A stretch of 64,000 nt of DNA from Trichinella spiralis. Taxonomy: Eukaryota > Nematoda > Enoplea > Trichinellida > Trichinellidae. A model generated the notes under the pieces. That model ran no database searches, was not told the origin of the DNA, and saw only the letters and a list, made by a program, of their open reading frames with translations. Position numbers and translations under genes: made by a program. Shown one piece after another: positions 33,019-33,233 of this stretch. Position 1 is the stretch's first letter; each line of letters starts with the position of its first letter. Where the stretch lies: NCBI GenBank assembly GCA_000181795.3, contig CM012953.1, forward strand, positions 15,448,664 through 15,512,663. The letters run 5' to 3'.

Positions 33019-33233
33019 ATGCATCCATCTGACGTTTCAAAACTAGCCGTAATTATTGTTGTAAGTGGAATGGTTGCATCGGCCATGTTTACTCTTTTGC
33101 CTACCGCTTATCCGGAGCATTTTGGTAAATAATAATTTTAATTTTGGCGAAAATAATAACTTGAAAAGTTATTTCAGGTTTCGTTAAAATGACCAAAGAA
33201 AATAACAATTCCGAAGTGAAACAAACAGATTGA
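33019..33233 (+). CDS. 53-residue single-pass membrane microprotein, family unknown
   Basis: Two exons, 33019-33124 and 33178-33233, joined in phase across a 53-base GT-AG intron (GTAAAT and TTTCAG ends). The product starts MHPSDVSK, has one hydrophobic segment (LAVIIVVSGMVASAMFTLLP, residues 9-28), then TAYPEHFGFVK and a polar tail ending EVKQTD. There is no cleavable signal peptide pattern; the short polar N terminus followed by one helix resembles small inner-mitochondrial or ER membrane proteins, but I cannot assign a family. An AATAAA follows at 33330. It is tail to tail with SRPRA. The frame is too short to stand out on length; support comes from the splice junction, the membrane segment and the promoter upstream. 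Confidence 0.6.

Follow-up and report, generated by a model that had tools for sequence, protein, structure and literature searches.

A small orphan gene of Trichinella spiralis, already listed and probably real, and an ordinary solo LTR probably mistaken for its promoter

The window, meaning the whole stretch of DNA analysed here, comprises 64,000 nucleotides of Trichinella spiralis (contig CM012953.1, positions 15,448,664 to 15,512,663 of the forward strand), and all coordinates given below are positions within it unless another contig is named. At the locus of interest, a small two-exon frame lies between an upstream dispersed repeat and a convergent gene for the signal recognition particle (SRP) receptor alpha subunit (Table 1). 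The frame of the latter is uninterrupted over 665 codons with about 55% G+C, in a window that is mostly AT-rich. Further upstream, on the strand of the small gene, two tandem MIF-type copies were found at 29746-31850 (+), the first of which was recognised by eye only; a 55-aa frame at 31568-31732 matches Pfam MIF with an E value of 2.2e-12. Other frames in the window match ribosomal protein L14p/L23e (36151-36558, +, E 3.6e-11; perhaps mitochondrial L14) and the CD36 family (41042-41503, +, E 1.8e-16). A 1035-codon open frame with the MID and C-terminal domains of Mediator subunit 13 (54111-57215, -) is contained in a G+C-rich block (0.48-0.55) at 54001-60000.

Table 1. Features of the small-gene locus, in window coordinates
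Feature	Position	Strand	Basis
Left target-site duplication ATACT	32321..32325	+	sequence
Solo LTR of a Pao/BEL-type retrotransposon (best reading), 557 bases, in the gene's orientation	32326..32882	+	dispersed copies, ends, duplications, polypurine tract/internal flanks, neighbouring domains
CCAAT motif inside the LTR; in 6/20 aligned copies	32578..32582	+	sequence, copy alignment
TATAAATAAG inside the LTR; TATAAATA in 18/20 aligned copies	32687..32696	+	sequence, copy alignment
AATAAA inside the LTR, 3' of its TATA; possible LTR poly(A) signal	32821..32826	+	sequence
Right target-site duplication ATAAT, 4/5 bases as on the left	32883..32887	+	sequence
Second acceptor-like TTTTTAG	32890..32896	+	inference
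Candidate splice/trans-splice acceptor TTCCGCAG	32949..32956	+	inference; leader then without upstream ATG
Exon 1 of the 53-residue frame	33019..33124	+	sequence; protein matches only its own locus genome-wide
GT-AG intron, 53 bases, acceptor TTATTTCAG	33125..33177	+	sequence; G+C 0.189
Exon 2 with stop codon	33178..33233	+	sequence; protein vs genome search
Candidate poly(A) signal AATAAA for the small gene; a second one at 33397	33330..33335	+	sequence
Convergent neighbour, SRP receptor alpha subunit	33441..35438	-	Pfam SRP54, SRP-alpha_N, SRP54_N

The two-exon frame is exactly as an earlier sequence-only reading had drawn it, with an ATG at 33019, a donor GT at 33125, an acceptor AG ending at 33177 and a stop codon ending at 33233, all read from the sequence. 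Its product has 53 residues (MHPSDVSKLAVIIVVSGMVASAMFTLLPTAYPEHFGFVKMTKENNNSEVKQTD), and the single membrane helix that had been claimed for it agrees with one hydrophobic stretch, the best 19-residue window being residues 9-27 (Kyte-Doolittle mean 2.45). It is plausible that the gene's product combines a polar tail with a single helix of the membrane-spanning or signal-anchor type, and our default reading is a putative single-pass membrane accessory protein. As a best guess held with low confidence, the role may be that of a single-pass accessory protein in a cell membrane, either of the mitochondrion or of the endoplasmic reticulum.

The same reading had called the protein undescribed, a description that fails since an identical 53-residue entry is already public. 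In a database of 5.8 billion entries, the search returned one (NCBI/UniRef/nr), which agrees at 100% identity along the full 53 residues and carries the NCBI name "conserved hypothetical protein [Trichinella spiralis]". It was probably predicted from the genome of this very species and is not independent proof, and because it may have that origin it is no proof of expression. Relatives were absent among proteins of about 29-93 residues besides the identical entry, and no candidate appeared among those of about 92-292 residues; since small genes are often missing from annotations, this speaks neither for nor firmly against conservation. For Trichinella, three chromosomes have been assembled (PMC13334664). 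A protein query of the genome revealed no further copies of the gene, both matches being its own two exons.

The statement that no family could be recognised holds good, as Pfam gave nothing at its cut-off for the 53-residue protein, PDB sequences gave no match at E <= 10, and the profiles of four small proteins were negative at the locus. The Pfam matches below the cut-off, PAP2_3 and PsbM, were taken as helix noise. The four profiles were those of OST4 (PF10215), STMP1, COX8 (PF02285) and SMIM20, which are small membrane proteins with one helix and of a length class like that of the 53-residue protein; we take PF15054 to be STMP1 and PF15061 to be SMIM20, which profile searches print as DUF4535 and DUF4538. 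None of the four profiles matched the protein. In the genome, OST4 and STMP1 each had a match above the cut-off on C3, COX8 had one match below the cut-off (E 8.26) elsewhere, on C1, and SMIM20 had none at E <= 10. The locus was not named in the listed titles and abstract openings of literature on SMIM20 in nematodes, on T. spiralis LTRs, on trans-splicing and operons, or on BEL-Pao elements in Trichinella.

We then come to the question of whether the frame is coding. Its G+C content is 0.425 in exon 1 and 0.304 in exon 2, against an intron at 0.189 and non-LTR flanks at 0.24-0.25. Codon scores were trained on 8 of the 10 long frames found (two were left out), and the in-frame score exceeded that of base-shuffled versions with P = 0.018 for all eight training frames and P = 0.011 for the four AT-rich ones. 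With all eight frames, the score itself was slightly negative (-0.02 per codon, against a null mean of -0.159), and with the four AT-rich frames a reverse-strand frame scored 0.045 vs 0.052 for the small-gene frame. The frequency of G at the second codon position was only 0.06. When the 557 bases of non-LTR sequence were shuffled with dinucleotides preserved, 19 of 2000 runs produced a two-exon frame of 53 residues or more, and 6 of 2000 one that also had a membrane-like helix. Applied to the whole window for frames of up to 100 residues, the same rule yielded three donor-acceptor pairs on the plus strand and none on the minus strand, the small gene itself meeting the rule behind the three plus-strand pairs. 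On the shuffle counts and the whole-window counts, the two-exon frame is thus locally unusual, yet roughly one such frame is expected per window. Taken alone, the G+C contrast, the codon score and the shuffles are suggestive, not strong, evidence for coding.

One alternative is that the frame is untranslated, having arisen by chance or being the relic of a decayed gene, and that the public entry is an ab initio prediction. The whole-window and shuffle counts are consistent with this, as is the lack of relatives, of Pfam matches at the cut-off and of PDB matches. Against it stand the G+C content of exon 1 (that of exon 2 being less contrasting), the codon score, the scarcity of G at the second codon position, the clean acceptor and an A at position -3 of the ATG. 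We consider this alternative unlikely. The coding signal is modest; the small two-exon gene is probably real and translated, and it could be silent.

The stretch upstream of the gene is of a different nature. A DNA search of the genome with 32250-33440 found, besides the locus itself, at least 44 pieces at 38 or more places, which are lower bounds given that 40 of 72 candidates were scored. All of the 44 listed pieces fall inside 32313-32913, with 68-95% identity, 12 spanning nearly the whole block; none of them reaches the small gene. Both LTR ends were recognised in 32 of the 38 listed loci, all of which were examined, but not in the other 6, under a rule of at most three mismatches per end that leaves some placements doubtful (e.g., L010). 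Eight of the 32 two-ended copies were flagged as lying at an element edge by a polypurine tract (PPT) and/or an internal-side flank. Among the 24 unflagged copies, 5-base duplications were perfect in 9, matched at 4/5 bases in 4 and were poorer in 11; at one of these, L033, inspection by eye shows a flank of the internal side. The copy in the window has a duplication of 4/5 bases and neither a PPT nor an internal-side flank. Where TG...CA inverted termini would be expected of an LTR, it reads TGTTGAGA...TCTTAAGA, with one changed base at the right end; the exact TCTTAACA end was found in 13 of the 32 other listed two-ended copies, and the rest differ by at least one base.

Some other copies are preceded by the polypurine tract GGGGTGGGAGG, and others are followed by TTGGTCC / TTGGTCCTC(C/T)GAGCCGG, marking the internal side. 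Four short frames beside LTR copies were scanned for domains and three matched. The frame beside L011 matched DUF1759 (E 1.5e-25), one frame beside L008 matched Integrase_H2C2 (E 2.7e-11), and another beside L008 matched DUF5641 (3.3e-10) together with rve (5.3e-6, under its cut-off); the frame beside L013 showed no domain match. We take the set of DUF1759, integrase and DUF5641 to mark Pao/BEL elements. Based on the dispersed copies, their shared ends, the 5-base duplications, the PPT and internal flanks and the neighbouring retrotransposon domains, the block at 32326-32882 is most readily interpreted as a solo LTR of the Pao/BEL type. The altered right-end base and the mismatch in the duplication of the window copy speak against this. 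A DNA transposon or MITE, which the inverted ends had brought to mind, was dropped given the PPT, the internal-side flanks, the integrase and the 5-base duplications. Among the sequences given in a 2005 paper (PMC554778) is an EST of T. spiralis that matches Sinbad, a Pao/BEL element, weakly (expect 0.002). As a separate observation, L011 (C1:17133900-17136900) and L012 (C1:17139800-17142800) each hold an LTR of this family, separated by about 5.5 kb, and these loci are 98.5% identical over 1138 bases of LTR plus adjoining sequence. The LTR at L012 is flanked by a PPT to the left and by the internal side to the right, as though it were common to two elements.

This repeat changes the meaning of the upstream motifs, which had been described as the small gene's own CCAAT/TATA promoter. 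The motifs are present, TATAAATAAG starting at 32687 and CCAAT at 32578, and both lie inside the solo LTR, to which they belong and not to the small gene; their conservation was counted over 20 of the 38 listed loci, aligned with the window copy. Nor could the special standing proposed for the TATA box be confirmed, as the window has 17 occurrences of TATAAATA (plus strand 7, minus strand 10), three of these within 250 bases at the LTR, and the box is part of a dispersed repeat. Nothing spoke for an RNA gene following the TATA box, since Rfam gave no match, either for the whole window at the gathering score or for 32250-33440 at E <= 1.

RNA started from the LTR TATA box would, from the usual spacing, begin near 32715. 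Between the TATA and the gene's ATG lie the AATAAA at 32821 and five ATGs (32771, 32830, 32886, 32905 and 32945), one of which opens a 23-codon frame that ends two bases before the gene's ATG. Only 4 of the 20 aligned copies carry the AATAAA at this position, while three of the 20 lack bases there, which leaves it uncertain whether the signal acts as a terminator. From the end of the LTR to the ATG there are 136 bases, which include two acceptor-like motifs. Trans-splicing adds a spliced leader to about 30% of the genes in T. spiralis, some of them operon members (PMC7986045).

The LTR could nevertheless act as the promoter of the small gene, its TATA box having replaced or supplementing an older start. 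Such co-option is suggested by the shared orientation, the intact TATAAATA, the short distance to the ATG and the retention of the TATA in most of the aligned copies. On the other side, transcripts would run into the AATAAA downstream of their start and carry a leader burdened with five upstream ATGs, including the 23-codon frame that closes just before the gene, and the window copy, which shares no more than 93% identity with any of the 20 others aligned, may be inactive. Since the AATAAA and the upstream ATGs would precede the true start, we regard an LTR start as rather improbable, and consider it likelier that the message starts without a TATA box, or is trans-spliced, past the LTR end.

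A variant of the gene reading, compatible with the LTR, is that the hydrophobic stretch serves as a cleavable signal peptide and releases a secreted peptide of about 31 residues. The hydrophobic run begins at residue 9, and residues 20-22 form an A-S-A motif consistent with the (-3,-1) rule for signal peptidase; the run passes this motif to reach residue 27, at the hydrophobicity given above for 9-27, which is longer than is usual in a signal peptide. On balance, secretion appears quite improbable.

Less probable still is that, before the insertion, the small gene was the downstream, trans-spliced member of an operon with the MIF gene, which the sense LTR may have split by giving the small gene an LTR promoter. 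This reading draws on a MIF gene of the same strand that ends, by eye, a few hundred bases ahead of the insertion point, so that the two genes would be near neighbours if the LTR were absent, and on the acceptor-like TTTTTAG just past that point.

We therefore prefer, as fairly probable, the reading that two unrelated things lie side by side, namely a small two-exon gene and an upstream solo Pao/BEL LTR from which the message is likely not started. A Pao/BEL element would have inserted directly upstream of the small gene in the same orientation, and its internal part would have been lost, most likely by LTR-LTR recombination, to leave the 557-base solo LTR. The small-gene message would arise from a TATA-less start within the 136 bases between the LTR and the ATG or, alternatively, receive a spliced leader at an acceptor within those bases, and would then be translated. 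Taken together, these results suggest an already listed orphan small gene that is probably real, next to an ordinary solo LTR that had been mistaken for its promoter. The case carries a caution that a strong-looking TATA/CCAAT pair upstream of a small orphan gene in this AT-rich genome can be an LTR, and leaves one orphan small membrane-protein gene in the genome of the parasite. If the LTR does drive the gene, the locus would let promoter capture be studied in a simple natural setting, in a nematode that has both operons and trans-splicing.

As compared with known systems, the protein shows no sequence difference from the T. spiralis "conserved hypothetical protein" entry (P0001), whose accessible record does not name a function. 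With OST4, STMP1, COX8 and SMIM20 it shares the length class and the single helix, whereas their profiles do not match the locus. The window repeat differs from a full Pao/BEL element in that it has no internal region and shows two altered bases, one at the right end and the other in the duplication. In other respects the family resembles Pao/BEL elements, being an LTR-sized dispersed repeat with possibly inverted ends and 5-base target duplications, with a PPT before some copies, and with a gag-like DUF1759 and an integrase with DUF5641 beside others.
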